From positions 1 through 64,000 of the forward strand of contig NZ_BMPF01000007.1 in the NCBI RefSeq assembly GCF_014647455.2: DNA of 64,000 bases, read 5' to 3'. The notes beneath the pieces are model-generated. The model worked only from the letters and a program-made list of their open reading frames with translations. It did no database searches and was not told the DNA's origin. The position numbers and the translations under genes were made by a program. Positions 9,903 to 62,084 of the stretch are shown piece by piece (the stretch's first letter is position 1; the number at the start of each line of letters is the position of its first letter). Source of the stretch: Halarchaeum grantii (lineage in GTDB: Archaea; Halobacteriota; Halobacteria; Halobacteriales; Halobacteriaceae).

Positions 9903-10634
9903 ATGAAAATCAGCGAAGAGGAGTTAATTAACGAACTCAAGAGGTTGGCACGTAATCATTCATGTCCTCCAACTCTACAGGAGTTACGTGAACACGGAAA
10001 GTACTCTGCAACGACATATTATAATCGGTTTGGATCTTGGAAAGAAGCATTGGCTGAGGCAGGTTTTAGCCCACGAGATCCGCAAACAGAAGCTAGTGAA
10101 GAAGAATTAATTCAGTCACTAGTTGATCTTGCTGATAGACTTGAAGAAACACCTACTGTTGATCAGATGGACGAAGAAGGGGATTATTGGACTTCAACCT
10201 ACCGTAACCATTTCGGTTCGTGGGATGTAGCGCTTGAAAAGGCAGGATTAGAAAGGACAGAAGACAAGATATCAAAAGAAGAACTAATATCAGAGCTGAA
10301 GCGTCTGGGTGAGGAACTAAGTAGCCAACCAAGTCGGGAACAAATGTCTAATCTTGGAAAATATAGCGAGTCAACGTATCGTCGTCAGTTTGGTTCATGG
10401 ACTGCTGCCTTACAAGCGGCAGGATTTGATGAGCGGCCATCGGTAGGTGGTTCCAGAATCCCTGATGACAAACTACTATCTGACTTACAAGACCTAGCTG
10501 AAAAACTAGATAAGAAGCCAACAATGGACGATATGAATGAGCACGGACCACATTCACCAAATACATATGTTCAGAGATTTGGATCTTGGTCAGCTGCTAT
10601 AGAGATTGCGCTGAATCAAGAAGATTATGAATAG
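9903..10634 (+). CDS. Protein made of four HNH/homing-endonuclease-associated repeats (probable DNA-binding)
   Basis: 243 residues consisting of four repeats of about 60 residues (roughly 1-56, 62-116, 122-177, 186-236). Each follows the pattern ELI-x2-L-x-R-LA...PT-x2-Q[ML]-x4-GKYS-x2-TY-x3-FGSW-x2-AL-x2-AG(F/L), which is the homing-endonuclease-associated/HNH_repeat (HARE-like) small helical domain. No HNH or other nuclease motif is present, so this is a stand-alone array, probably binding DNA through its four units. The DNA is much more AT-rich than the surrounding coding sequence, suggesting foreign origin. No neighbour on the same strand shares an operon with it. Confidence 0.72.
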   Translation: MKISEEELINELKRLARNHSCPPTLQELREHGKYSATTYYNRFGSWKEALAEAGFSPRDPQTEASEEELIQSLVDLADRLEETPTVDQMDEEGDYWTSTYRNHFGSWDVALEKAGLERTEDKISKEELISELKRLGEELSSQPSREQMSNLGKYSESTYRRQFGSWTAALQAAGFDERPSVGGSRIPDDKLLSDLQDLAEKLDKKPTMDDMNEHGPHSPNTYVQRFGSWSAAIEIALNQEDYE

Positions 10635-47219: not shown

Positions 47220-48422
47220 ATGAACCACAGTCAGATTCGTGACGACCTCAACCAGTGCGGGCACTCCGCATCTAAACTGTGGAACGTCGGACGCTACTAC
47301 ATCCAACAACGGTGGGACGACGACAGTGAGATACCCGATGAAGCCGAGTTGAAATCGGAGTTGAAAGATCACGAACGCTATAGTGACCTCCATTCACAGT
47401 CAAGTCAGCGAGTTCTCGAAGAACTTGCTGAAGCGTTCACCGGCTGGTATAACTCCGACGACGGCAACAACCAGCCGGGCTACCGGAAATGTGGTGACCG
47501 ACACCCACGCTCCACCGTCACGTGGAAGCAAAAGGGCATCAAGCACGACACGAAACACGGCCAACTCCGTCTCTCAAAAGGATTCAACCTGAAAGACGGA
47601 CGGTCGGACTTCATCCTCACGGAATACGAAATCCGCCCCGACGTACAGGTAGAGAATATCCAGCAGGTGCGTGCCGTCTGGAACGGCGACCGTTGGGAAC
47701 TCCACCTCGTCTGCAAGAAAGAGATTCCCGTCGGGGATGCACCCGGCGACAATACGGCAAGTATCGACCTCGGCATCAGCAACTACCTCGCCATCGACTA
47801 CGAGGATGGTCCTTCGGAGTTGTATCCAGGGAACACCCTCAAAGAGGACAAACACTACTTCACTCGTAAGGAGTATCTGACCGAGAGCGAGAACGGGCCA
47901 TCGAAACGTGCGTTGAAGGCTCGTCGGACCCTCTCCCGGCGCAAAGACCACTTCCTTCACACTCTCTCGAAACACATCGTTCAGCGGTGTGTCAGCGAAG
48001 GTGTGGAGAAGATTGGGGTTGGCGACCTCAGCGGCATCCGTGAGGACGAGAACGGCGACTCGCGGAATTGGGGTCGGTCAGGCAACAAGAAGTTGCACGG
48101 ATGGGAGTTCAACCGGTTCACAAACCTGCTCGAATACAAGGCCGAGGAACACGGCATTCTCGTTGACCGGGTAGACGAGGAGAACACCTCGAAAACGTGT
48201 TCGTGTTGCGGGCAGATTCGAGATGCGAACCGCGTGGAGCGTGGGTTGTACGTCTGTGCGTCGTGCGAAACGCCGATGAACGCAGACGTGAACGGCGCAG
48301 TGAATATTCGGAGAAAGATAACTCAGAGTCCCCCGACTGGGGATATGAGTAACGGCTGGTTGGCACAGCCTGGAGTCTTCCTGTTCGACTGCGAGAGCGG
48401 CTGGTTCACACCGAGAGCATAG
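47220..48422 (+). CDS. tnpB: TnpB of an IS1341-type element, uninterrupted but 5'-short
   Basis: 400 residues. RuvC motif I at Asp183 (ASIDLGISNYLAIDYE), motif II region EKIGVGDLSGIRED (Gly268-Asp269 where many TnpB have Glu-Asp), zinc finger C327-x2-C330 / C346-x2-C349, motif III Asp356 (MNADVNGAVNIRRK). TnpB proteins are RNA-guided DNA nucleases using the transposon-end RNA. Relatives begin about 20 residues earlier (before QIRDDLNQCGHSASKLWNVG); here that part is replaced by the remnant at 47100-47219, so the gene is probably 5'-truncated. It has no tnpA and lies beside the origin repeats. Confidence 0.85.
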   Translation: MNHSQIRDDLNQCGHSASKLWNVGRYYIQQRWDDDSEIPDEAELKSELKDHERYSDLHSQSSQRVLEELAEAFTGWYNSDDGNNQPGYRKCGDRHPRSTVTWKQKGIKHDTKHGQLRLSKGFNLKDGRSDFILTEYEIRPDVQVENIQQVRAVWNGDRWELHLVCKKEIPVGDAPGDNTASIDLGISNYLAIDYEDGPSELYPGNTLKEDKHYFTRKEYLTESENGPSKRALKARRTLSRRKDHFLHTLSKHIVQRCVSEGVEKIGVGDLSGIREDENGDSRNWGRSGNKKLHGWEFNRFTNLLEYKAEEHGILVDRVDEENTSKTCSCCGQIRDANRVERGLYVCASCETPMNADVNGAVNIRRKITQSPPTGDMSNGWLAQPGVFLFDCESGWFTPRA

Positions 48423-48759: not shown

Positions 48760-49299
48760 GTGCGCTTCTCCCCCAGTCAGACAGGACTTGGCGACGTGGC
48801 CGTTCCCCAGAACCGCCCATCCGTTGCGTCCACCCGGCAGTCACCAGTGGTCCGTCACTATCAGCCCCTACTCCACCAATCCGTGTTTGACGCAGGCTCC
48901 CCCGCTGACGACCAGTCCACGACGAATCACGCATTACTGTCGAAGCTCCTCCCACGCCGCACTGCGATTGGCTTGGTTCTCCTCTGCCTTCTCGCTGTTG
49001 AGCCTGCGGCCGCTCAGCAGTCGGCAGTCTGTAACGCGGACAAACTCCCGAGCATGATTGAGGGGTTCTTCCAGCTCACGACGGCGCTGGGCATTATTGG
49101 GCTCGCCGTCGTCTGGCAGGCGAACTCCCTGATCGATATGTTCACGCTGAGCCCCGACCAGAAGAAGGGGTTGAAGCGGCACAAACGCTCGGCGCTCAAA
49201 TCCGCCGTCGTGCTCGTCGTTCTCGGCCCACTTTACACGGTCGCCGGGTCGATGATGGGCCTCCCGCTCGCCCAGTGTGTGAATCTCGTCCCCTGGTAA
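48760..49299 (+). CDS. Small membrane protein with VirB2/TrbC-like topology
   Basis: 179 residues from a GTG at 48760; the first ~60 residues look poorly conserved and the real start could be another GTG near 48847. From there: a signal-like segment RRTAIGLVLLCLLAVEPAAA Q, a short polar part with one Cys, helix 1 (IEGFFQLTTALGIIGLAVVW QANS), a basic loop (SPDQKKGLKRHKRSALK) and helix 2 (SAVVLVVLGPLYTVAGSMMG). Signal plus two helices with a basic loop is the topology of VirB2-type pilins. It heads the conjugation-like operon, 24 bp before the next gene. Confidence 0.55.
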   Translation: MRFSPSQTGLGDVAVPQNRPSVASTRQSPVVRHYQPLLHQSVFDAGSPADDQSTTNHALLSKLLPRRTAIGLVLLCLLAVEPAAAQQSAVCNADKLPSMIEGFFQLTTALGIIGLAVVWQANSLIDMFTLSPDQKKGLKRHKRSALKSAVVLVVLGPLYTVAGSMMGLPLAQCVNLVPW

Positions 49300-49323: not shown

Positions 49324-51057
49324 ATGTCCCACTCGTATGCGGTTCCAATAGCGGTTGCCAGCGTTCTCCTGCTCGCCACAGCTGCGGGACTTGCCTCTGC
49401 AAGCCCACCCCAACCAGGGACGGAGGGGAACGGGCTTACGGAGAACGAGTCTGCGACCCTCTGGTCGCACGACACGGACAACTACACGAGCGAATCTGTC
49501 TATTCCCAGCGGTACGGCGAGCACCGCACAGCGATCCAGCAGGTAGCGAACGGCACGGACATCACGTTCACCAGACCACCCAAGACCGCCGCGACGTGGA
49601 CACGGCACGATTTCGACGACCTCCACGCCGGCGGCCTACACACGTCGAACTATCCCGAGAACGCGAATCTCGAGGATAGCGTACTCATCGCAGACGCTCA
49701 CGCAACGATTTTCGCCGCGCAACCGTCGACACGAGCACATCTCGCGTCCGGCGAGACGCGCACGTATCTCGCACCAGACGGCACATTTCGTGGCCTCGTG
49801 GACTACCGGGTTCGCTACCCGAACACGACGACAGCGAACGCGACGCTCGGAAACACGAGCACGGACTGGTCACTCGCGAGCCACCAGATTTCGCGCGTCT
49901 GGCTTACACAGGACGGTGAGACGCTCGCCTCCAGTTCTGGCACACACACGCCGACGCTCGACTACCACCTGCAGAACGACCGGAGTACGACGCTGACACT
50001 CCACGCACAGATCGAGGTTCGCGTCCAGCAGACCGTAGAGCTGAACGGCAACGTCATTAACGCGACGACGCGGACTGACTCGATTACGGTCAGTGACTCA
50101 CTCGACGGATCAGTCTACGATCTTGCCGCGTACCCCTACTACGCGACGTATCCGAACGGCGATGCGGGCGTCGCAATCTTCCAGTCGCGGCCGTGGCAGG
50201 GCTACACGCTCACCAGTAATGGGAGTGAGCGTGTGCGCGGCGTCTGGCGGTCCTACACTGCCCGCCACACGAACTGGGACACGCTCGTCTCCTCGACACG
50301 TGACGGCGAGACGCGCACTCAACCGGACGCTATTCCCGTCTCAGTTCACGCGTATCCGTCGCGGATCGGGCCAGTCGCTGAGCCCGTTCGAACCGGCCCA
50401 TCGGTCGTCAAGACGTGGGGGATTAATCGATCGTCGCCTGCGTCGACACTCGGCGAGAATGTCCACATCGACGTCGTGAACCAGTCCTACAAGACGTCCT
50501 ATGGGGTCGCCGTTCGCACCGACGATGTCGACCGGCAAGCACTCCACGTCGGGGGAATCGTCCGCGGCGTGAACGCGACCATCATCCAGCCACAGGAGGG
50601 ATCGACGCGACACCTCCGAGAAAGTAATCTCACAGTGAGTGTTCTCTCGCAGAACGATTCGGCCGCAGTCGTCCGTCTCGAACTCCGGGACAACCAGACG
50701 GGTGCGCCAATTGATCTCTCGAAGAGCCAGCGTGGCCGTGCGCTCGCCCAATCGGATGACGGCTACATCGCGATTGCTGGCCAACACGTCCAGACGAACG
50801 CCTCTGGAGTCGCCGTCGTCACGTTCACGCAGCCCGGCATCTACACGGCGCAGTACCATCCCGAATCGTGGCTCGGCGCGAATCCCGCCTACGTACGTGA
50901 CCGGGCGAGCGTCCGCTGGCACCCGCTCGGCACGATACAGGGGTGGTTCGACCTCGCGTTCACGACTGGGTGGAAGCTCCTCCCGTTCGTCGTGATGTTC
51001 TACGCCGGTACGCACCTCCTCCGCCTCTTCGACCTCCACCGCTTCCAGAACCCATGA
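49324..51057 (+). CDS. Large surface protein anchored at its C-terminus, conjugation operon
   Basis: 577 residues. Signal peptide at about 1-26 (VPIAVASVLLLATAAGLASA), a long extracellular part rich in N-x-T/S sequons and beta strands with an Ig/invasin-like final domain (GVAVVTFTQPGIYTAQYHPE), then a C-terminal helix (GWKLLPFVVMFYAGTHLLRL) and a short basic tail. It is expected to face outward at the cell surface, possibly for mating contact; no named family is recognised. The stop overlaps the start of the next gene (ATGA at 51054-51057). Confidence 0.62.
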   Translation: MSHSYAVPIAVASVLLLATAAGLASASPPQPGTEGNGLTENESATLWSHDTDNYTSESVYSQRYGEHRTAIQQVANGTDITFTRPPKTAATWTRHDFDDLHAGGLHTSNYPENANLEDSVLIADAHATIFAAQPSTRAHLASGETRTYLAPDGTFRGLVDYRVRYPNTTTANATLGNTSTDWSLASHQISRVWLTQDGETLASSSGTHTPTLDYHLQNDRSTTLTLHAQIEVRVQQTVELNGNVINATTRTDSITVSDSLDGSVYDLAAYPYYATYPNGDAGVAIFQSRPWQGYTLTSNGSERVRGVWRSYTARHTNWDTLVSSTRDGETRTQPDAIPVSVHAYPSRIGPVAEPVRTGPSVVKTWGINRSSPASTLGENVHIDVVNQSYKTSYGVAVRTDDVDRQALHVGGIVRGVNATIIQPQEGSTRHLRESNLTVSVLSQNDSAAVVRLELRDNQTGAPIDLSKSQRGRALAQSDDGYIAIAGQHVQTNASGVAVVTFTQPGIYTAQYHPESWLGANPAYVRDRASVRWHPLGTIQGWFDLAFTTGWKLLPFVVMFYAGTHLLRLFDLHRFQNP

Positions 51058-51905
51058 CTGACAGCTCACCACCCATCGACCGTCGTACCGCCCTTCGAGC
51101 ACTCGGTAGTCTCACTCTCGTCGGCATCGCCGGCTGTACCGGCGATCAGAGTACGGGGCCGTCGAGTTCCTTGACGACCACCACTGCTGGGCCGTTCGCG
51201 AACGTCGGCGTCCAGGGGACGACGCTCGTCGTCGACCTCGTGAGCGATACCGACATTGAGCATGTGAACCTCGTGAAGCCGAATGGATCGCTCTTCGGGA
51301 CACGCGACGTCGCGCAGGGGGCAAGCCGCGTCTCCTTCGACGTCGGCACCACCTACACCCCTGGCGAATACGAGCTCGTCGCCGTCACCGGCGACCAGAC
51401 CGTCGGCACCACGACACGGACGCTCCGTCCCGACCTCCAAATCATCGAGATGGGGATTGGACGCAATCAGCCCGAGAAGATGTGGAACGGATCCAAGCAG
51501 GAAATTGCAGACGAGGCGTATGTAGTGGTCCGGAACGGTGGGAGTGGGCCAGTCTCGGTTACACAGCTGTTGTTCCTTGGAATGGCGCCCTATCCGAGCG
51601 GAGAGAACGGCACCGGGTACGCCGATGATCCGGACATAAGTGGGATATACGACCCACAGTCAGACTCGGAAGCTTCGAAGGTCACCTTCGGTCCGGGAGA
51701 GCAGAAGACGCTCTATAGCTCTCGTTCTCCGTTCGCCTTCGTCCCCGGTAGTGGGACGACGTGTACGGATAGTGTTCAGCAGGGAACGTTCACAGTATCG
51801 CTCGAAACCGATCCCGATGCATCCTCGACCTCGAAGATGTACGATATCCGCTACTCAGCAGCTGAGAAGTTCAACAACTGTACGCTCACGATCGGAGGAG
51901 AGTAA
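51054..51905 (+). CDS. Tat lipoprotein of the conjugation-like operon
   Basis: 283 residues from the overlapping ATG at 51054 (MTDSSPPIDRRTALRALGSL). Tat motif DRRTALRALG and lipobox GIAGC, so it is a lipid-anchored extracytoplasmic protein. A beta-sandwich domain (TLVVDLVSDTDIEHVNLVKP ... YTPGEYELVAVTGDQTVGTT) is followed by a second one ending with two cysteines (SGTTCTD; KFNNCTLTIGGE). It may cooperate with the surface protein upstream. The N-terminal extension seen in the longer open frame belongs to the upstream gene region and is not used. Confidence 0.65.
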   Translation: MTDSSPPIDRRTALRALGSLTLVGIAGCTGDQSTGPSSSLTTTTAGPFANVGVQGTTLVVDLVSDTDIEHVNLVKPNGSLFGTRDVAQGASRVSFDVGTTYTPGEYELVAVTGDQTVGTTTRTLRPDLQIIEMGIGRNQPEKMWNGSKQEIADEAYVVVRNGGSGPVSVTQLLFLGMAPYPSGENGTGYADDPDISGIYDPQSDSEASKVTFGPGEQKTLYSSRSPFAFVPGSGTTCTDSVQQGTFTVSLETDPDASSTSKMYDIRYSAAEKFNNCTLTIGGE

Positions 51906-51907
51906 CG

Positions 51908-52966
51908 GTGGTCGATCTGATCGGCGTCGTCCTTCAAGGGTTCAAGGACGCCGTCAACTGGTTCACCGGCCTGTTCATGCAGGGCCTCACGAAGGGGTAT
52001 ACGCAGCTCTCGACCGCTATGTTCGGGACGCCAACCCCGCAGACGGACGGTGCGTTCGTCTTTGGCCAACCAACGAACGCTCCGTGGCAGTCTATCCATC
52101 ACGCCCTGATTGGTGGCGAGATCATGGTCGTCTCGCTGCTCCTGCTCGTAATCTGCGTGCAGGGCCGCCACCTTATCCGTATCTTCAACATTGGAAGCAC
52201 GTATGAGTCTCGGCGGACGCGTAAGACCGCGTGGGTCGGTGCCTTCCTCATCATCACGTGGTACTGGGTCGCCGTACTTACGCTCTACCTCGTGAATGGA
52301 TTCACAATCGCACTCCTCCCGAGCCTCAGCGCCCTCGGCGCTGCGATGCTCAATTTCCTTGAGAGAACGTTGAGCAATCCTGGCCTCTCACTGGTTTTCG
52401 CGCTTCTTGGTGGGCTCTCGATGTGGGCGCTGGAGGCACTCTACTACATCCGGGAAGTCCTCCTCTACGTCTATATTTACGGGATGCCGATCGCATTTGC
52501 GCTCGCCTACGGGAATGTCCCGGTCCTCTCGGACGTCGCGATGGGCTTCGCGAAGCGCTTCGTCCCGCTCGCCATCCTCCCACTTCCCGCCGCTGTCGTG
52601 TTCAAAGGCTACGACTTACTCTACTCACAGCACGCGCTCTCGCCGGGCAGTCCGTTCCTCAAGTATCTCGTCGCCGTCTCCCTCCCACTCGTCGCCTTGG
52701 TGGTGACGTGGAAGACGTTCCAGTACGCGACGCCGCTGACCGCGAAAGCCATCGGCACCGCGACGCGCGGTGCTGCACTCGTCGGTGGTGTTGCAGCAGG
52801 CGCCTACGTCGGTGGGGCGAGCGTCGCGACGACCGCTGCCCGCTGGGGCCCGAAAGCCGCTGCTGGACAAGCTGTTGCTGAGCACGCCAGCCGTCGCGCT
52901 TCAGAGGAGAGTGAGGAGTCTATGCCGTCGTATCGCCGCACAGAGAACGACCCACAGACACGCTAA
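51908..52966 (+). CDS. VirB6/TrbL-like polytopic membrane protein
   Basis: 352 residues from a GTG, 2 bp after the previous stop. About seven membrane helices, an amphipathic N-terminus (LQGFKDAVNWFTGLFMQGLT) and a cytoplasmic Ala/Gly-rich then charged tail (AARWGPKAAAGQAVAEHASR ... RRTENDPQTR). This matches the size, topology and position of VirB6/TrbL-type inner-membrane components just before the PrgI/VirB4 genes. Sequence identity to bacterial VirB6 cannot be judged here; assignment rests on topology and context. Confidence 0.6.
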   Translation: MVDLIGVVLQGFKDAVNWFTGLFMQGLTKGYTQLSTAMFGTPTPQTDGAFVFGQPTNAPWQSIHHALIGGEIMVVSLLLLVICVQGRHLIRIFNIGSTYESRRTRKTAWVGAFLIITWYWVAVLTLYLVNGFTIALLPSLSALGAAMLNFLERTLSNPGLSLVFALLGGLSMWALEALYYIREVLLYVYIYGMPIAFALAYGNVPVLSDVAMGFAKRFVPLAILPLPAAVVFKGYDLLYSQHALSPGSPFLKYLVAVSLPLVALVVTWKTFQYATPLTAKAIGTATRGAALVGGVAAGAYVGGASVATTAARWGPKAAAGQAVAEHASRRASEESEESMPSYRRTENDPQTR

Positions 52967-52972
52967 CCCAGT

Positions 52973-54091
52973 ATGTCCACAGATCCAGACGCTGCCGCCC
53001 GACGCATCATGAATCAGTTCGGCGAGGAGAGCCGCATTCCCTACCTCAACATCGAGGAGGGAGATGTTGGCGTCCTCATCGCCTTCCCCATCATCGGCCT
53101 CTTCCTCGCCGCCCTCACCGGTATCGACTCACTCGCCCTTCCGTTCGTCGCAGGTGGGTTCGGCCTCGGTGTCGCCATCATCTACGTCTCCCCACGCCAC
53201 CTCACCGCGTGGACGTGGGCAACCGACGTCTACCAGTACCTCAAACGCCCCCGAATCACCTTCAGCGCACCAGCCGAACCAGAATCGGGGACGAACGAGA
53301 CGGTTCGGAACGAAGGCGGATTCGCGAATTACACGCCCTTCACGCCGGACGAGCGGACGCAGGACCTCACCAATATCGAGCGGGCGTGGCCCGGCGCCGG
53401 CGCGATCCAGCGCTCGGACGGCACGATGGAAGCCTTCGTTGAGGTTGACCCGGACAACATGGATTTCGCGATGTCCGAGGACTGGGCGCAACTCCAGGAG
53501 GCGGGCGCGGAGTTCGCGAACAAAGAACTCGACTCGAAGCTCAAACTCCACGCCACCACGCGTGCATTCCCTGTCGAGCAGGTTGTCAAGAACATTCAGG
53601 ACCGCCTCGACGACGAGGACGTCCAAGCGAACCCGGTGTTCCACGAACTCCTTGAAGAATACCTCGAGACACGCCCACGCGAGATGCGCGAGCGTGGCAT
53701 CCAGCAGATCCGCTACTACATCGGCGTCGAAGTCTCCCCGATGGACGTCTACGACCGCTATCGCGACGAATCGACGCCCGCCGAGAAACTTACCGAGATT
53801 CCCGTGGTCGGCTTCCTGTTCAACCCGTTCGTCACACGCCGCGAGAACTTACAGGCGGTAGAGCAGCGGGCGCGGATGTTCGAGACGCTCGACGACCGCG
53901 TCGCTGCCGTCCGGAGCGAGTTCATCCAGCAGGCGAGTGGGTGGTCGGCACGCCGGCTCAGCACGGTCGAACTCTTCACGCTCGCGATGGATTTCTGGAA
54001 CGGCCACGAACACGACGTCGACGACCCCGAATCGGTCATCCGCCAACAGCCAGCGATGGATCAGCAGGCACGGGAGGATGCCGATGCATAA
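52973..54091 (+). CDS. PrgI/VirB3-like plus VirB4 N-terminal-like protein
   Basis: 372 residues. Two helices at about 35-75 (VGVLIAFPIIGLFLAALTGI; LALPFVAGGFGLGVAIIYVS) preceded by RIPYLNIEEGD form the PrgI/VirB3 module. A soluble domain follows with GAIQRSDGTMEAFVEVDPDN MDFAM and EVSPMDVYDRYRDESTP, which resembles the N-terminal, non-ATPase half of VirB4/TraC proteins. No Walker motifs. Its last 8 bases overlap the start of the VirB4-like ATPase, so the two are made together and probably form one complex. Confidence 0.65.
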   Translation: MSTDPDAAARRIMNQFGEESRIPYLNIEEGDVGVLIAFPIIGLFLAALTGIDSLALPFVAGGFGLGVAIIYVSPRHLTAWTWATDVYQYLKRPRITFSAPAEPESGTNETVRNEGGFANYTPFTPDERTQDLTNIERAWPGAGAIQRSDGTMEAFVEVDPDNMDFAMSEDWAQLQEAGAEFANKELDSKLKLHATTRAFPVEQVVKNIQDRLDDEDVQANPVFHELLEEYLETRPREMRERGIQQIRYYIGVEVSPMDVYDRYRDESTPAEKLTEIPVVGFLFNPFVTRRENLQAVEQRARMFETLDDRVAAVRSEFIQQASGWSARRLSTVELFTLAMDFWNGHEHDVDDPESVIRQQPAMDQQAREDADA

Positions 54092-56273
54092 CGTCGTCCT
54101 TCCGGCGGCAGTCGGGTTCGGCGAGCAGCTCTCACAGTGGGCACTCAACCCAACGACGCCCGGCGGTGTCCTCCTCTACCTGCTCGTCGCGGTCGTCATC
54201 GTCGCTAGCGGGGTTGTCGCGTGGACGCGCTCGCAGGCACGTAGCGACGAGCCGACTGTCGAGTTCGCGGACGTTCTTGACGAGGGGACGCTCGAAGAGG
54301 GGCAGGCCGAAGGACGGCTGCTCGACGAAATCGCCGAGTCACACAAGACAGCGATTGCGCCAGCCGCCATCGAGTGGGAGACACGCGCGGCACACGTTGG
54401 CGAGCAGTGGACGTCGACGCTCTATATCGCGGAGTACCCTGACCATCCGACTGATGGCTACCTCAGCGACCTCTTCGAGCTGACCGATGTCGAGTTCGAC
54501 CTCACTGCGCATGTCACGCCGAAGAACCAGGAGCGCGCCCGCACTGAACTCGAAGAGATCGCTGACGACCTCCAAGTGGATGCAGACCTCGAGCAGAGCG
54601 TTCGTGGTGCGTATCTCCAAGAGCGCGCTGACGAGGCCGCAGCCACGTACAAGGCCGTTGAGAGCGGTGCGAACGTCTTCGACCACGGGCTGTTCATCAC
54701 GGTGCGCGCCGACGAGAAGGACGACCTGCAGGACGCCGTCCGCACCGTCAAGAGCACCCTTCGCGACGACCCCGCAAACCTCACACCGAAAACCGCGATC
54801 TGTCGGCAAGATGTTGCCCTCCAGTCCGCCGCACCGATCGGCGACAACGAGTTCGGCCGCGAGTCTATCGCCCTCGGTGGCGCCGTCGGCGCCCTCCTCG
54901 CGTCCCCCCATAACGCGACAATCCTCGAGGAGGGTGGCGTCGAGTTCGGCATCCACAAGGACAACCAGAGCCCCGTCGTCATCGACCCGTTCGACCGTGA
55001 CAACGGCTATGCGATGTTCACCGTCGGGGACACCGGCTCCGGGAAGTCGTTTGGCTCGAAGCAGAACTTCATCCGCTCGATCGAACAGGACCGCGACCGC
55101 ATCGGCATCGTCCTCGAGCCGCTCAACAACTGGGCGGGTGTTTCGGAAGCGCTCGACGCCCAGCGAATCACTGTGGGTGGAACGCTCGGCCTGAATCCCC
55201 TCGAAATCCGCCAGACGCCTGAGCACGCGCAGCGGGCGATGGGTGAGGACGCGAGTCCATTCAACGAGAAACTCGACGACGCGATGAGCTTTCTCACCAA
55301 CTTCTTCGCCCTACGGGGGATTTCGCTTGGTGACCGGCGGACGACGCTCGAACTCGGACTACGGACTGCGTACGCCCGACAGGGTATCACCGACGACATC
55401 ACGACGCACGATAATCCGAGTCCGACGATTCGGGATATGCTCGACGTCTTCGAGGAGATGGTTGAAGCCCCCGAGGAGTTCGTCGTCCGCTCCGAATCTG
55501 AGGCCGAAAAACTGCAAGCCGACGCGACGTGGCTCCTTGACCAGCTCCGGCCCTTCGAGGCGGAAGGCCGGCACGCGAATCTTGGGAAGGAGTCTGCCTT
55601 CGACATTCGGGATGAGAAGACGATCTATCTCGACCTCGCCCAACAGGAGGGGAGTGTGGACTCCAGTACAGCACTCACGATGCAACTCCTCATCTCACTC
55701 GTCTACGAGCGCGCAAAGGAGACCGAGAAGGAGGTCGTGTTCGTCATCGACGAGGCCAGATATATCATGCAGGATGCCGCGAGTCTCGCATTTCTCGAGA
55801 CGGTGTTCCGCCATCACCGCCACCACGATCTCTCGATTCGCCTCGTGACGCAGACGGTTGACGAGTTCTTCGAGCACACCGAAGCCGAGGCGATTCTTGA
55901 TCAGTGTGCGGTCAAGCAGTTCCACCGCCTTGACGGAATGGACGAGGAGTGGGCCGACGAGTTCGGCCTGAACTACGCGCAGATGCGCTACGTCCAGGAC
56001 GCCGTTCCCGGCAACGAAGATGCTGGGTTCTCCGAAGCACTCGTCGGCGTCGACGGCGAGTGGCGCGGTATCCAGGTCGAGGCGATGCCCAAAGAGAAGC
56101 AGGTCATCGACTTCGACCCCACCACCCAAACTCGCGACGAACTCCCCGGCGCGACCAGCGACGAAGCTGATTCAGAGCTGGAGTCGATCCAGCAGCGACT
56201 CGCCGAGAAAACTGGCAACTCGACTGACGACGCAGAACAGGTCGCGGAGACGGACGGTGGTCGCGATGAGTGA
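54084..56273 (+). CDS. VirB4/TraC/HerA-type conjugation ATPase
   Basis: 729 residues from ATG 54084 (MHNVVLPAAVGFGEQLSQWA); the GGAGG at 54073-54077 is well spaced for it, better than for ATG 54078. One N-terminal helix (VLLYLLVAVVIVASGVVAW), a VirB4 N-domain-like segment, then the ATPase: Walker A GDTGSGKS (about 315-322), Walker B VVFVIDEARYIM (Asp556-Glu557), and an LVTQTVDEFFEH stretch. It should energise assembly of the transfer machinery. Translation is coupled to both neighbours by overlaps (54084-54091 and 56266-56273). Confidence 0.85.
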   Translation: MHNVVLPAAVGFGEQLSQWALNPTTPGGVLLYLLVAVVIVASGVVAWTRSQARSDEPTVEFADVLDEGTLEEGQAEGRLLDEIAESHKTAIAPAAIEWETRAAHVGEQWTSTLYIAEYPDHPTDGYLSDLFELTDVEFDLTAHVTPKNQERARTELEEIADDLQVDADLEQSVRGAYLQERADEAAATYKAVESGANVFDHGLFITVRADEKDDLQDAVRTVKSTLRDDPANLTPKTAICRQDVALQSAAPIGDNEFGRESIALGGAVGALLASPHNATILEEGGVEFGIHKDNQSPVVIDPFDRDNGYAMFTVGDTGSGKSFGSKQNFIRSIEQDRDRIGIVLEPLNNWAGVSEALDAQRITVGGTLGLNPLEIRQTPEHAQRAMGEDASPFNEKLDDAMSFLTNFFALRGISLGDRRTTLELGLRTAYARQGITDDITTHDNPSPTIRDMLDVFEEMVEAPEEFVVRSESEAEKLQADATWLLDQLRPFEAEGRHANLGKESAFDIRDEKTIYLDLAQQEGSVDSSTALTMQLLISLVYERAKETEKEVVFVIDEARYIMQDAASLAFLETVFRHHRHHDLSIRLVTQTVDEFFEHTEAEAILDQCAVKQFHRLDGMDEEWADEFGLNYAQMRYVQDAVPGNEDAGFSEALVGVDGEWRGIQVEAMPKEKQVIDFDPTTQTRDELPGATSDEADSELESIQQRLAEKTGNSTDDAEQVAETDGGRDE

Positions 56274-59200
56274 GTACCTCTGTGTGACGCCGACCACGGA
56301 GGCAGTCGCCCCAGCGGGAGTTCCACGAATCCTTGAGAGCCTCCACAAACTCACGAATGAGGACTCAGGACTTGGAGCAAAGCTGAATCCGCTCTCGTCG
56401 TCGACGCCGCCGCGTTTCGAGTTCCTCGCGCTCAGCACGGGCGACGATGCACCAGTCGAGTTCTACTACAGCGCCGACGACTACCTCGACACTCTCGAGG
56501 AACGCCTACAGTCCGTCTATCCGGAGACATTCGACGTCGAACCCGTTGACCTCAACGTTGAGTCGCGGCTCATTCAGCCAGTCGAATACGCCCGTGCGGA
56601 ATTCATCGACGCCTACCAGCAGGACGCCCTCCAGTACGAATTCTCCGAGAACGAGCAATACACACTCACCGAAGACGGCGGGATTGAGGCACCGAGTGTC
56701 GATGTGACTGCGGACAGCGTGGTGTCGATCGACGATATCGCGCTCGAACTCGCGACTGGAGACGAGACGCCGATTGAGAAACCGACGCTAACGGAGGAGG
56801 GCACGATTCTTGCGCGTCCGGCAACCGATGCTGTCTCTCCATATGGTGTCCGCTGGCGGGGATCGGCGAGCCGGAAAGAGGACTGGATGACGTCCCTCGC
56901 GCCATTCACGGACGGCGAGGACGAGGAATCTCTGTCAGCGGTCGACCAGCCGGGTGCAGCGCTCGCGTCCCTCATCGACCACGTGAACGACGCGACGGAG
57001 CCACTTGCCTTCCAAGTGGTGTTCGAGCGGCGTGCGAACTGGCAGTCCGACGCCGATGTTCGGAAAGAAGATCTGATCGACGGCCGCGACACACTCGCTC
57101 AGCGACTGGTTGGTGACCTGCTTGCGTACGATCCGGAGTACGAAGACGAGCGACCGGACAGGAGCGAACTGAGTGATCGTGTCGTCCGGCGGCTCGACGC
57201 AATTCGGGCGACGAATCCACAGCGCTCGTTCACCGCCAACATCCGCGCAATCGGCGTCCCGACCAGTGACGACGGACAGGAATCGCTTGACGAACGACTC
57301 GCGTCGCTCGCTCCCGTTTTCGACCCACTCGACGGCCCCTTCTACCACGTCGACACCGAGCGGCTCCGCGAGAGTGGCTTCCGCCAGGCGAAAAAAGAGC
57401 AGAATGCACGAACGGCACTCCAGCGCCTCCTTGATGCGGAGCTAGTGACTGGACGTGGGAAGACACGTCCGGACTTCGTGTTGAGTGGGCGCGAACTCGC
57501 ACACTTCCTCCTCGTCCCCTCGTCCGAACAGCTCTCAATCGAAGGGTCGCGTGGGACGCGCGCCGAGCAGCAGAGTCGGAATCCGCTCGCCCGCCCGGAC
57601 CCCGACCTCATGAGCGAATTCCGCGAGGGGATGGCAATCGGCCGTGCACTCGACGACACCGGCACGCCCGAGGATACCCCGACGCGGCTCCCGCCGAGCC
57701 TTCTGCCAACTCACTATGGCCGGTTCGGGACGACCGGGGCCGGGAAGTCGAAGGCCCTGATCAATGACCTGCTCTCCCTCTACGCGAATACCGACGGGCC
57801 GACAATCCTCATCGACCCGAAGGGCGACGGGATGTCCGAGAACTATATGCGCGCCCACGCCGCCCGCTACGGACTCGACGACCTCGAAGAGAACGTCATC
57901 CACTTTGCCATCCCAGAATCGCTCCCCGGATTCTCCTTCTTCAATATCGAACCGGCTCTTGAGAACGGCGAGCGGCGTGCAGATGCCGTGCAGAAGAAGG
58001 CTGACCACTACGAGGAGATTCTCAAACTCGTCATGGGCCAGGAGCGCTACGAGCGCGCGACTGTCGCACCCGGCCTGATCAAGACGCTCATCAAGGCGCT
58101 CTTCGACGAGGAACACGGTCGTGAGAACGGCGAGTATCGCGAGTCGGAGAACTACTTCGCCCACCGCCAACTGGAGAACGCCCTTGACCAGCTCTGGGAG
58201 GCCGGCCCGCCACAGCCCGACCTGAGCGCGGCACCACAGTCGAGCGACGACGCGGTCACGCGCTCGCTACGCCGACAGCTGCAGGCGGACAAGACGACGT
58301 TCTCAAACATCATGGGCGGCGTCGGCAACCGTCTCTCGATGGTCTCGGACGACACGAACCTCCGCCGTATCTTCAACAACACCGAGCCACAGTTTGATTT
58401 CCGCGAGATTCTCGACGAGGATACGGTCGTCCTCTTCGACCTCGGCAATCTTCGCGAGGACGCCGCCCGTATCATGACGGGTGTCATCCTCACCAATCTC
58501 GAAGCCGCGCTCCAAGAGGAGAACCACGACGCCGCACGACGCCCGGAGGACTACGTGGTTAACCTCCTGATCGACGAGGCCGCCTCCGTCGCCGTCTCCG
58601 ACATCATGAACAACCTCCTCGAGCAGGGACGGAGTTTCCGTCTCTCGGTTGGGTTGTCGATGCAGTTCCCCGAGCAGATGAAGGCCGAAGGCGGCCGGCG
58701 CGCCTACCTGAACGTCCTGAACAACATCGGCAGCCCCCTCGTCGGGAAGATTAGTGTTGACCGAGAACTCGCGCAAGCGATGGCTCACGAAGAGATGGAT
58801 CCGGAGGCGTTCGCAAACCGGATTCGCTCACTCCCACGTGGGGAATGGGTTGCGAACCTCCCTAGCCCCGTCTTCGGTGAGACTGGGCCGTATCCGTTCA
58901 GTCTCGCCCCACTCCCAATCCCGGACGGCCACCCTGAGAGTGACCAACCGTTGACTCCGGACGAGGAGGCACGCTTCGAGGACGTGCTCACGCGAATCCA
59001 CGACAACGTTGAGGAGACCTATGGCGTCACCGAGGACGAGACACCGACGACGCAGCCGCCCGCGGAACTCGGCGAGCTGCTTGACGTCACGGACGGTGAG
59101 TTGGACGTTGCGCTCGCGAAGATCGTGCGCAGCGTCCAGTTACGAACGAATCGCCGCGACGGGAACGACTGGGTGGCGGTCGAAACCGTCGACGACGAAC

Positions 59201-60543
59201 TCCGTCGCCTCTTCGAGGACGCTGATGCGGACGCACCATCCTACGACGAGCTCTCGGCGGTGCGTCAGCGCTCGCGTTTCCTCGAGACGACCGTCGATAT
59301 GGACGCCGACGAGCTCGTCATCCGTCTTACCGAAGACGGCGAAGACGTCGCGACGCCCGAAACAGGGTCGGTGCAGTCTGCTGGCAGTGAGAAACACGAT
59401 ATGGCCCTCGAGCAGATCGAGCAAGAGTTGACCGCACAGGGATTCACCGTCTCGATCCTCACACAGGACGGCAGTGAGAAGCCAGACGCACGGGCAACCC
59501 ATCCTGACTTCGAGGAGCCGTTCGCAATCGAGGTTGAGACGACGACGCCCGGAAAGCCAGCGAAGGTACTCACGAACCTCCGCAAGGCACAGGAAGCCGG
59601 CGAAATCCCGCTCTTCGTCGTTCGTTCTGACGAGTCGCAGACCTACTGGGCCGAACGTGTTGAACAGACCCTCACCGAGCCTACGCGCGAACTCGAGTCG
59701 GGGGAGACACGCTTCTACACGACCGATGAGAGTATCACGTTCAACGGCGGCGCGACCGAAGATGGCGGCCTCACCGCTGTTCGTCCGGTTGGCGATAGCC
59801 AGCAGAACGTCTGGGCAGAGCGTGACGGGCAGGTCGTCTTGATTGATGGGGAGGGAACAGAATATCTCCGGGTTGACTCCGTTGATGACGTGTCGAAAGC
59901 CCGAGTACCGGCAGTCTACAGCTACGACTCGGCAGCCGACGAGTACGTCGTCTACGACCAGGATAGCCAGCGTGTCTATAGCACCAAAGAGGCGTTCTCC
60001 GACGACTGGACGAAGATCAAACGCCCGTTCGTGCCAGCTGATGATCTTCTGATACCCGAAATCCAGCCAGCCCATTACGCTATCCTAATCCTCTCGACAG
60101 AGGGCGAGTCGTTCGTCTATCGCGATGGGGAGATGACGCCGCTTGATGGTCTCTCACAGCTAACTCTCACGACTGAGCCCGCTGAGAATGCCTCACTATC
60201 CGAGGAGAATCTTCCTACAGAACAGTCGGTGCAGTCTAGCGAGACCGAGCACGTCGAGAAGCTAAGTGAATCGGAAATCGCGGACTTGGAAGGGAACCCA
60301 GATGAGGTGGTCGCGTATTTCGCGCGAACCCACCTCACGGAATCTCCGAATGCGTCTGAACGATCCGAGCGAGTCTACAATGTGTATCGGTCGTGGGTGG
60401 AAGATGCAGGACTCTCCCCGGACTCGAAGCGCTGGTTCACGCGACGGCTGAGGAACCACATCAACTTCGAGAGCATAGTCAAGAAACAGGGAGATGAAAC
60501 GGTTCGCCACTACGACGGGATCGAACTCACAGAGGCGGATTAG
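56266..60543 (+). CDS. VirD4/TraD-like coupling ATPase with nuclease-like C-terminal region
   Basis: 1425 residues from ATG 56266 (MSEYLCVTPTTEAVAPAGVP), overlapping the VirB4-like stop. The first ~450 residues are an N-terminal alpha/beta region. The motor domain follows: Walker A FGTTGAGKS (487-495), TILIDPKGDG, Walker B VVNLLIDEA (Asp770-Glu771), then the QFPEQMKAEGG sensor region, all as in VirD4/TraG/HerA coupling ATPases. Around 1055-1125 there is a restriction-endonuclease-like pattern (KPDARA, Asp1074; IEVETTTPGK, Glu1089/Glu1091), and the last ~90 residues form a helical domain. No transmembrane anchor is seen. It would bring DNA to the secretion channel; the nuclease-like part could process DNA or be degenerate. 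Confidence 0.8.
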   Translation: MSEYLCVTPTTEAVAPAGVPRILESLHKLTNEDSGLGAKLNPLSSSTPPRFEFLALSTGDDAPVEFYYSADDYLDTLEERLQSVYPETFDVEPVDLNVESRLIQPVEYARAEFIDAYQQDALQYEFSENEQYTLTEDGGIEAPSVDVTADSVVSIDDIALELATGDETPIEKPTLTEEGTILARPATDAVSPYGVRWRGSASRKEDWMTSLAPFTDGEDEESLSAVDQPGAALASLIDHVNDATEPLAFQVVFERRANWQSDADVRKEDLIDGRDTLAQRLVGDLLAYDPEYEDERPDRSELSDRVVRRLDAIRATNPQRSFTANIRAIGVPTSDDGQESLDERLASLAPVFDPLDGPFYHVDTERLRESGFRQAKKEQNARTALQRLLDAELVTGRGKTRPDFVLSGRELAHFLLVPSSEQLSIEGSRGTRAEQQSRNPLARPDPDLMSEFREGMAIGRALDDTGTPEDTPTRLPPSLLPTHYGRFGTTGAGKSKALINDLLSLYANTDGPTILIDPKGDGMSENYMRAHAARYGLDDLEENVIHFAIPESLPGFSFFNIEPALENGERRADAVQKKADHYEEILKLVMGQERYERATVAPGLIKTLIKALFDEEHGRENGEYRESENYFAHRQLENALDQLWEAGPPQPDLSAAPQSSDDAVTRSLRRQLQADKTTFSNIMGGVGNRLSMVSDDTNLRRIFNNTEPQFDFREILDEDTVVLFDLGNLREDAARIMTGVILTNLEAALQEENHDAARRPEDYVVNLLIDEAASVAVSDIMNNLLEQGRSFRLSVGLSMQFPEQMKAEGGRRAYLNVLNNIGSPLVGKISVDRELAQAMAHEEMDPEAFANRIRSLPRGEWVANLPSPVFGETGPYPFSLAPLPIPDGHPESDQPLTPDEEARFEDVLTRIHDNVEETYGVTEDETPTTQPPAELGELLDVTDGELDVALAKIVRSVQLRTNRRDGNDWVAVETVDDELRRLFEDADADAPSYDELSAVRQRSRFLETTVDMDADELVIRLTEDGEDVATPETGSVQSAGSEKHDMALEQIEQELTAQGFTVSILTQDGSEKPDARATHPDFEEPFAIEVETTTPGKPAKVLTNLRKAQEAGEIPLFVVRSDESQTYWAERVEQTLTEPTRELESGETRFYTTDESITFNGGATEDGGLTAVRPVGDSQQNVWAERDGQVVLIDGEGTEYLRVDSVDDVSKARVPAVYSYDSAADEYVVYDQDSQRVYSTKEAFSDDWTKIKRPFVPADDLLIPEIQPAHYAILILSTEGESFVYRDGEMTPLDGLSQLTLTTEPAENASLSEENLPTEQSVQSSETEHVEKLSESEIADLEGNPDEVVAYFARTHLTESPNASERSERVYNVYRSWVEDAGLSPDSKRWFTRRLRNHINFESIVKKQGDETVRHYDGIELTEAD

Positions 60544-60544
60544 T

Positions 60545-60880
60545 ATGAATTCTAACACCGATATTCCAGGTGTACGCCGTTGGCAATCTGCTCTATGGCG
60601 TATTCGCCGTAGGCAGCCAGTAGAAGCCGGGAAACGATACGTTACGACAGGTTACGATAGAATGACCCAACGTTACGACAGCGGTTACGACAGAATTCGG
60701 GCAGTAGAAGATATTCAACGTCCAGCTCGAGGGAGTTCGGGTACTCCGTTACGACAGAAGGCGACTAGTATAGATAGGGGGGTAGCCGTCGGAAACCGTC
60801 TTTGTCGGGCTTGGCGAGACTGGGAGAGTTGTTTGAACTCTGAGAGTGGTGTGAGTATGCAGGTGACCGGCGATGAGTGA
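60545..60880 (+). CDS. Doubtful ORF over the iteron cluster
   Basis: 111 residues from ATG 60545 (MNSNTDIPGVRRWQSALWRI). The product is very basic (Arg-rich), unlike resident proteins, and its middle is simply the translation of the GTTACGACAG repeats (YDRMTQRYDSGYDRIRAVED). It overlaps the primase-like start by 8 bp. It may be a real small DNA-binding protein, but a non-coding control region is more likely. Confidence 0.25.
   Translation: MNSNTDIPGVRRWQSALWRIRRRQPVEAGKRYVTTGYDRMTQRYDSGYDRIRAVEDIQRPARGSSGTPLRQKATSIDRGVAVGNRLCRAWRDWESCLNSESGVSMQVTGDE
60641..60757 (+). repeat. GTTACGACAG iteron-like direct repeats
   Basis: Five direct copies of GTTACGA[CT]AG at 60641-60650, 60651-60660, 60672-60681, 60684-60693 and 60748-60757. 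They lie between the coupling-ATPase gene and the primase-polymerase-like gene. Spacings of 10, 21, 12 and 64 bases are irregular, but all copies face the same way, as in plasmid iterons or a relaxase/initiator binding site. Confidence 0.75.
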
Positions 60881-62084
60881 GGAGTTTGATGTCGAGGTGG
60901 ACGACCTGCCAGCTGTGTTGCGGGAGCGCGAGCAGTGGGTTGGGTGGCGGGTCGAGGAGCGTGGTGGGAAGGCAACGAAGGTACCGGTGAATGCAGAGAC
61001 GGGTGGGTTTGGGTCGGCGACGGATGCGGTCACGTGGGCGGACGTGGCGACGGCGATTGGTGCGGTTGAGTCAGGGGAGGCAGATGGGATTGGGTTCGTC
61101 TTCACCGATGATGATTCGCTTGTCGGCGTTGACCTGGATGACTGCCGTGACCCTGAAACGGGCGCGGTTGCGGAGGACGCGCGGGACATCATCGAGCGGT
61201 TGGATTCGTATACGGAGGTTTCGCCGTCGGGGACGGGTTTCCACGTGCTTGTGGAGGGTGAGTTGCCGGCGGGGCGGAATCGGCGTGGGAGTGTGGAGTG
61301 CTACGAGACGGCGCGCTTCTTCACCGTGACCGCCGACCACGTTGCGGGGACGCCGACGCGGATTGCGCGCCGGCAGGACGCCCTACGGGGCATTCACCGT
61401 GAGTACGTCCAACCCGACGATGAAGGTGCGTCGACGGCTGATAACGCGACGTCGGAGACGGCAGGGGACGCAACGCCGCCGAGCGACGTCGACTTGGAAG
61501 ACGAGGAGTTGGTGGAGAAGGCGATGGCGGCGTCGAATGGAGCGAAGTTCGAGCGGTTGTGGAACGGCCGAATTGGTGGGTACGACAGTCAGTCGGAGGC
61601 GGATATGGCGTTTTGTTGTCTCTTGGCGTTCTGGACGGGTGGTGATCAGGCGCAGATGGATCGGCTCTTCCGCGAATCGGGGTTGCTGCGTGAGAAGTGG
61701 GATGAAGTCCACTACGCGGACGGCTCGACCTACGGCGAGAAGACGATTGAGCGCGCCGTCCAGCAGACCTCCGAGTTCTACGAACCCGAGACAGCGCAGA
61801 CGGACGAGCGGACAACGTCGAGCAGGCAGCGCGCGTCGTCACGTGAGGAGCGCGGGGAGGCATACCTCCGGGAGAAGAATCGGGTGTTAGCCGACCGTGT
61901 CGAGACGCTCGAAGCGACGCTTGAGGAGAAAGACGAGCGCATCGCGGAGTTAGAGGCAACGGTCGAAAACCTCCGAGACGAGTTGGAGGAAGCGAGGACG
62001 GACGCAGATACCGAAGCGGACTCTGGGGAGGAGCCAGCGTCGTCGATGTGGAAGCAGACGAGAAACTGGTTCGGGTCGAACTAG
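60873..62084 (+). CDS. Primase-polymerase-like replication protein (NrS-1-like AEP)
   Basis: 403 residues. The N-terminal ~160 residues form an archaeo-eukaryotic primase-like domain: DLPAVLREREQWVGWRVEER, the catalytic GVDLDDC (Asp87, Asp89), SPSGTGFHVL with His124 and ARFFTVTADHV. Residues ~205-310 (KFERLWNGRIGGYDSQSEAD, YGEKTIERAV) match the helical domain that follows AEP in phage NrS-1-type polymerases. A coiled coil (about 325-385) ends the protein. There is no helicase domain. It could prime replication or the complementary strand after transfer, in keeping with its place behind the conjugation genes. Confidence 0.75.
   Translation: MSEEFDVEVDDLPAVLREREQWVGWRVEERGGKATKVPVNAETGGFGSATDAVTWADVATAIGAVESGEADGIGFVFTDDDSLVGVDLDDCRDPETGAVAEDARDIIERLDSYTEVSPSGTGFHVLVEGELPAGRNRRGSVECYETARFFTVTADHVAGTPTRIARRQDALRGIHREYVQPDDEGASTADNATSETAGDATPPSDVDLEDEELVEKAMAASNGAKFERLWNGRIGGYDSQSEADMAFCCLLAFWTGGDQAQMDRLFRESGLLREKWDEVHYADGSTYGEKTIERAVQQTSEFYEPETAQTDERTTSSRQRASSREERGEAYLREKNRVLADRVETLEATLEEKDERIAELEATVENLRDELEEARTDADTEADSGEEPASSMWKQTRNWFGSN

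Follow-up and report, generated by a model that had tools for sequence, protein, structure and literature searches.

A predicted PD-(D/E)XK-type nuclease-like domain with three invariant acidic residues is fused to a haloarchaeal coupling ATPase

How archaea start conjugative transfer is a question raised anew by one gene in a 64,000-nucleotide stretch of Halarchaeum grantii (contig NZ_BMPF01000007.1, positions 1 to 64,000; hereafter the window), which represents 64 kb of a 68.5-kb contig in a haloarchaeal genome of 3.0 Mb. Published surveys of archaeal elements recognised very few relaxases, if any, and suggest that unknown ones exist (PMC3158045, PMC9905601). In the window, a type IV secretion operon encodes a coupling ATPase (P0001) whose C-terminal tail contains a nuclease-like domain, and the question is whether this ATPase itself nicks or otherwise processes the DNA to be transferred. 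On balance, the sequence comparisons and structural models lead us to favour such a catalytic role in DNA processing. We establish here the architecture of the protein, the predicted fold order of the domain, the strict conservation of three acidic residues, the homology of two tail types and the operon context.

The gene occupies positions 56266..60543 and its translation of 1425 residues is free of stops (coordinates are those of the window; this gene, its parts and the operon genes described below are on the + strand). Translated from another in-frame ATG, at 56020, the protein would have 1507 residues; the start at 56266 is supported because homologues begin at ‘MxEYLRVTPTSE’, and it overlaps the end of the VirB4 gene (56273). 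The motor, of the VirD4/TrwB/HerA kind, spans residues 458-850 (57637..58815) and contains a Walker A (GTTGAGKS, residues 488-495, 57727..57750) and a Walker B motif (LLIDEAAS, residues 767-774, 58564..58587). It matches the Pfam models DUF87/HerA (2.6e-6) and TrwB_AAD_bind (3.5e-5) above cut-off, T4SS-DNA_transf just below cut-off and NCBIfam SXT_TraD (2e-8) below its cut-off. The original prediction, made from the DNA letters alone, of a Walker A/B ATPase about twice the usual VirD4 size is thus borne out.

With a motor of the type IV coupling protein (T4CP)/HerA class, encoded in a conserved operon alongside VirB4 and TrbL, P0001 is classed by sequence as a T4CP. It resembles the VirD4/TraG/TrwB T4CPs of the FtsK-HerA superfamily in its DUF87, TrwB and T4SS-DNA_transf matches and in the position of its gene, which comes immediately after VirB4 in an operon that also contains TrbL, but it differs in its length of ~1425 residues and in carrying, fused to the motor, a winged helix, a PD-(D/E)XK-type domain and, at the C-terminus, a further winged helix of the primase type. 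Together with a beta-rich domain and a long N-terminal part, these additions account for the roughly doubled size. No match to P0001 was found in phage records.

The tail, which we call type A, was modeled by AlphaFold with a mean predicted local distance difference test (pLDDT) score of 86. It begins with a winged-helix region (residues 945-1021, 59098..59328) predicted as helix-helix-helix-beta-beta, followed by the nuclease-like domain (residues 1036-1140, 59371..59685). Here the model places a helix (1042-1057), three strands (1061-1064, 1075-1078 and 1086-1090), a second helix (1098-1110), a strand (1114-1120) and a final helix (1127-1137), an a-b-b-b-a-b-a order of the PD-(D/E)XK kind. 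The pattern KPDARA...IEVETTT had earlier been read as PD-(D/E)XK-like, and the predicted fold agrees; the numbering of that pattern is also correct, with KPDARA beginning at residue 1072 and IEVETTT at residue 1088, which makes the acidic residues D1074, E1089 and E1091. D1074 sits just before strand 2 and E1089-x-E1091 lies at the end of strand 3. The domain matches no Pfam or NCBIfam model. From fold order, profile comparisons and conservation together, we regard it as very probably of the PD-(D/E)XK type.

Conservation was assessed first in 56 homologues and then in 71 aligned copies from across the phylum, over residues 1036-1145. The original prediction had named D1074 (59485..59487), E1089 (59530..59532) and E1091 (59536..59538) beforehand as the residues whose lack of conservation would refute it, and all three are invariant in 71/71 copies, being the only invariant columns of the region. 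In the 56-homologue set each is likewise invariant (56/56), as are H1044, Q1067 and N1104; with 16 of 89 columns invariant in that set, the chance that three pre-named residues would all be so is ~0.005. Beyond these three acids the domain diverges to ~30% identity or less among relatives. A wider search reached far relatives that include coupling ATPases of 840-897 residues in other families of the phylum, and the two of these that were checked both lie directly behind VirB4.

Within the PD-(D/E)XK signature of type A, the Asp and the first Glu are invariant, and an equally invariant Glu, E1091, replaces the usual Lys. This E-x-E had been taken as a possible sign of an inactive site, a reading that is not favoured here: E1091 is as invariant as D1074 and E1089, and the invariance of all three argues against decay of the site. 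Nor does Glu in place of the usual Lys preclude catalysis: BamHI, whose catalytic residues are E77, D94, E111 and E113, uses the second Glu of an E-x-E, and its E113K variant cleaves poorly (PMC8845596). The same E-x-E occurs in all eight MOBC relaxases that we aligned. A Lys in the next helix, K1100 (59563..59565), is a Lys in 54 of the 56 homologues and in 57 of the 71 copies; since it is Gln in ten of the latter and Arg in two, it is not strictly required.

Not every coupling ATPase carries this tail. The same genome holds four further copies (L002-L005), of which L002 and L003, both cut by contig ends, have a type A tail and L004 and L005 do not. The latter two, together with 17 other coupling ATPases that lack the type A tail, end in a different one (type B), with a winged helix followed by H..D..E-x-E..D-Y-D-K and, in the AlphaFold model, the same order of elements as type A. 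In the first set of loci, every coupling-ATPase open reading frame (ORF) examined is of type A or type B. Early hhalign comparisons with few sequences gave no significant match between types A and B or between the nuclease parts and MOBC; after both sets had been enlarged, the A-B match became clear. The two profiles match with an E-value of 1e-5, and of 5.9e-5 for the nuclease parts alone, scores that 0/60 column shuffles equalled, and the H, D and E-x-E fall in register. By these profiles, the type A and type B tails are homologous.

The comparison extends to known archaeal PD-(D/E)XK nucleases. Type B matches the NucS/EndoMS profile (E 3.5e-4, 0/60 shuffles) with its E-x-E on E-x-K, and type A aligns with Hjc so that the two PD motifs coincide and EVE lies opposite EVK, a marginal match that 1/60 shuffles reached. 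The PD and E-x-E/K motifs of NucS/EndoMS and Hjc are thus in register with those of the tails, but these enzymes keep E-x-K, act in repair or on junctions and are not fused to a motor. In Foldseek, the weak matches of the type B model include NucS/EndoMS, YaeQ, FokI and Cdn1, whereas runs with the whole type A tail are dominated by its C-terminal winged helix. Fold-search backing for the PD-(D/E)XK core therefore comes through type B, and is weak and indirect.

If the tail cuts DNA, it might stand in for a relaxase. The earlier observation that no relaxase was recognisable in this system extends to the whole genome, where searches with PF03432, PF08751, PF02486 and PF13814 gave no match above cut-off. 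MOBC relaxases (pAD1 TraX, pAM373 and Replic_Relax, PF13814) combine a winged helix with a PD-(D/E)XK-type domain (PMC12857230, PMC5714925), and mutagenesis showed that their active site resembles that of restriction endonucleases in kind (reviewed in PMC12857230). AlphaFold predicts the same succession of domains in both tail types, and H, D and E-x-E follow in the same order. In two bacilli, Paenibacillus and B. licheniformis, the MOBC gene directly adjoins that of the coupling ATPase, the latter beginning at the base following the end of the former. MOBC relaxases differ from the tails in being separate, small proteins (~230-315 residues in the eight used).

Profile comparisons limit how far this likeness can be taken. 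For the nuclease parts, the type B score against MOBC was reached by 1/60 shuffles, and type A gave no match. PF13814 matches neither tail, its best hit in the genome (13.6 bits) lying elsewhere, and the pAM373 relaxase used as query against viral contigs found no relative. The full-length score between type B and MOBC was rejected as proof of kinship, as it comes mainly from the winged helix (z-score 9.2 alone, against 2.8 for the nuclease part). With profile support thus limited, we describe the tail as MOBC-like in architecture and claim no membership; the relation is no more than suggestive. Separately, haloarchaea also encode stand-alone type-B-like proteins with a winged helix and nuclease domain, from ORFs of 263-326 codons; five of these (L178, L179, L180, L181 and L187), with ORFs of ~270-326 codons, are of MOBC-relaxase size and belong to no Pfam family, and L187 has a primase relative nearby.

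Some match to the coupling ATPase occurs in 195 of 293 genomes of the order, the weak ones perhaps being other members of this ATPase class. In a plasmid collection 179 records match, 178 of them typed as non-mobilizable and one as conjugative; this last, NC_014299 (L082), was assigned MOBP by MOB-suite, a call that may be a false positive. A second system in the H. grantii genome (contig C4, L239) has a VirB4 92% and a TrbL 91% identical to those of the window. Its coupling ATPase is ~71-85% identical to that of the window over the first 450 residues and 34-65% over the motor, and its sequence is unrelated after about residue 920. Variation of the motor-tail half against a constant channel would fit a substrate-recognition module. 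In a further copy, on contig C8 (L240), the upstream VirB4 aligns only as separate segments (46% and 78%), so that this copy may be degraded or recombined.

A mechanism can be proposed on this basis. The winged helix would place the nuclease domain at a site on the element, and a centre formed by D1074, E1089 and E1091 would hold a metal and nick or cut one strand there. The ring ATPase would then drive the DNA through the channel of VirB4 and TrbL, and in the recipient the primase from the same operon would help to rebuild the second strand. The coupling ATPase would in this way act as relaxase and coupling protein in one chain. Several points weigh against this proposal. The site lacks the usual catalytic Lys, and in some copies K1100 of the next helix is replaced by Gln; the type A tail retrieves no PD-(D/E)XK enzyme at a significant score in Foldseek, and the type B matches have E-values of ~0.05 and above; and the direct matches of type A to NucS or Hjc are marginal. 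Moreover, cleavage by the tail and transfer by the system are predictions from sequence and models, and the preference for site-specific single-strand nicking over double-strand cutting or end trimming is purely inferred. A more specific version is possible and is offered tentatively: the tail would be the relaxase so far missing from archaea, a non-covalent nickase of MOBC-like kind joined to the coupling ATPase. The type A and type B tails would then be interchangeable origin-recognition modules on transfer machines that are otherwise nearly identical, and a split primase of viral type would complete the strand once in the recipient.

The domain could instead be an end-processing nuclease of the NurA-HerA kind, which without site specificity would trim or resect the DNA moved by the motor to yield single strands for export. 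The motor does match HerA, NurA-HerA has been proposed as the maker of single-stranded DNA in archaeal transfer (PMC9905601), and transjugation in Thermus uses a HerA-like ATPase, a NurA-like nuclease and a restriction enzyme (PMC5365140). The NurA-HerA and Thermus TdtA systems thus share with the present one a HerA-type pump, a nuclease and relaxase-free DNA donation, but in them the nuclease is encoded by a gene of its own and has an RNase-H-type fold; NurA itself is RNase-H-like (PMC9905601), which is not the fold predicted here. Each tail also has its own winged helix, and the tails differ between near-identical systems, which suggests sequence-specific recognition. We consider end processing unlikely.

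More doubtful still is a reading of the domain as catalytically dead, kept by the coupling ATPase as a clamp that binds DNA or for oligomerisation. The missing Lys and the incomplete conservation of K1100 would fit, but a clamp would not need three acids kept as the sole invariant residues while the rest diverges, and E-x-E is catalytic in BamHI. Finally, it is improbable that a separate nickase, for example an unknown relaxase or a Rep-Arvir/DUF7845 initiator of the Rep_trans type, cuts the DNA while the domain does another job, perhaps the destruction of competing DNA or the control of entry. Rep-Arvir initiators are indeed present on integrative and conjugative elements of archaea (PMC13107129) and the motor, as does VirB4, weakly matches the MADS defence ATPase model, but PF02486 (Rep_trans) has no match in the genome, though it may miss Rep-Arvir, no initiator-type endonuclease family appears among the part of the window’s ORFs that was scanned, and we set a defence role for the coupling ATPase low, as the MADS match is generic to ATPases of this kind and the operon is one for secretion.

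The genes around the coupling ATPase form a conserved haloarchaeal type IV secretion operon of TrbL/VirB6, VirB4, coupling ATPase and primase, as judged from their family matches, with the same gene order in Haloferax and Natrialba loci. Upstream are a possible VirB2/TrbC pilin (48760..49299; PF04956, E 0.0094, below cut-off), which is conserved in L006-L008, L010 and L011, and two proteins identified as conserved by locus comparison, one surface-type (49324..51057) and one lipoprotein-like (50943..51905, ORF start uncertain). TrbL/VirB6 (51908..52966; PF19590, 2.2e-135) is followed by a protein of no family (52973..54091), kept in L006-L008, L010 and L011 and present in L239 at 90%, and by the VirB4 ATPase (53937..56273; PF03135; NCBIfam VirB4-type models to 1.6e-35), whose true start is later than the ORF start. 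A TnpB/IS605 OrfB-type gene (47220-48422) lies directly upstream of the operon, and elsewhere in the window (9903-10634) is a protein of four homing-endonuclease-associated repeats (PF18780, 2.5e-83).

The C-terminal end of the tail suggests a primase link. The nuclease-like domain is followed by a beta-rich domain of unknown function (residues 1148-1292, 59707..60141, predicted strands), conserved in type A tails, and then by the C-terminal winged helix of the RFX/Pox_D5 type (residues 1335-1421, 60268..60528; Pfam Pox_D5; Foldseek 8zjr at 4e-4 and 1dp7 at 1e-3). In its final 80 residues the coupling ATPase matches positions 685-757 of the 772 of the phage DNA primase family phrog_1829 (E 0.0018), and the downstream gene, an NrS-1-like primase-polymerase half (60873..62084; PF22763, 3.7e-32) conserved in L006-L011, covers the first 341 positions of the same family (1.4e-91). 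It looks as if the two ends of a viral-type primase-helicase have been shared out between neighbours, with the coupling ATPase in the place of the helicase. A conjugation-linked primase would fit single-strand transfer.

In the literature searched we found no description of a nuclease-type domain fused to a coupling ATPase. For the question of how archaea start conjugative transfer, the fused tail could supply the missing first step, the cutting of the DNA. With a nuclease-type domain and its invariant triad on the coupling ATPase of many haloarchaea and of other families of the phylum, that question becomes directly testable.

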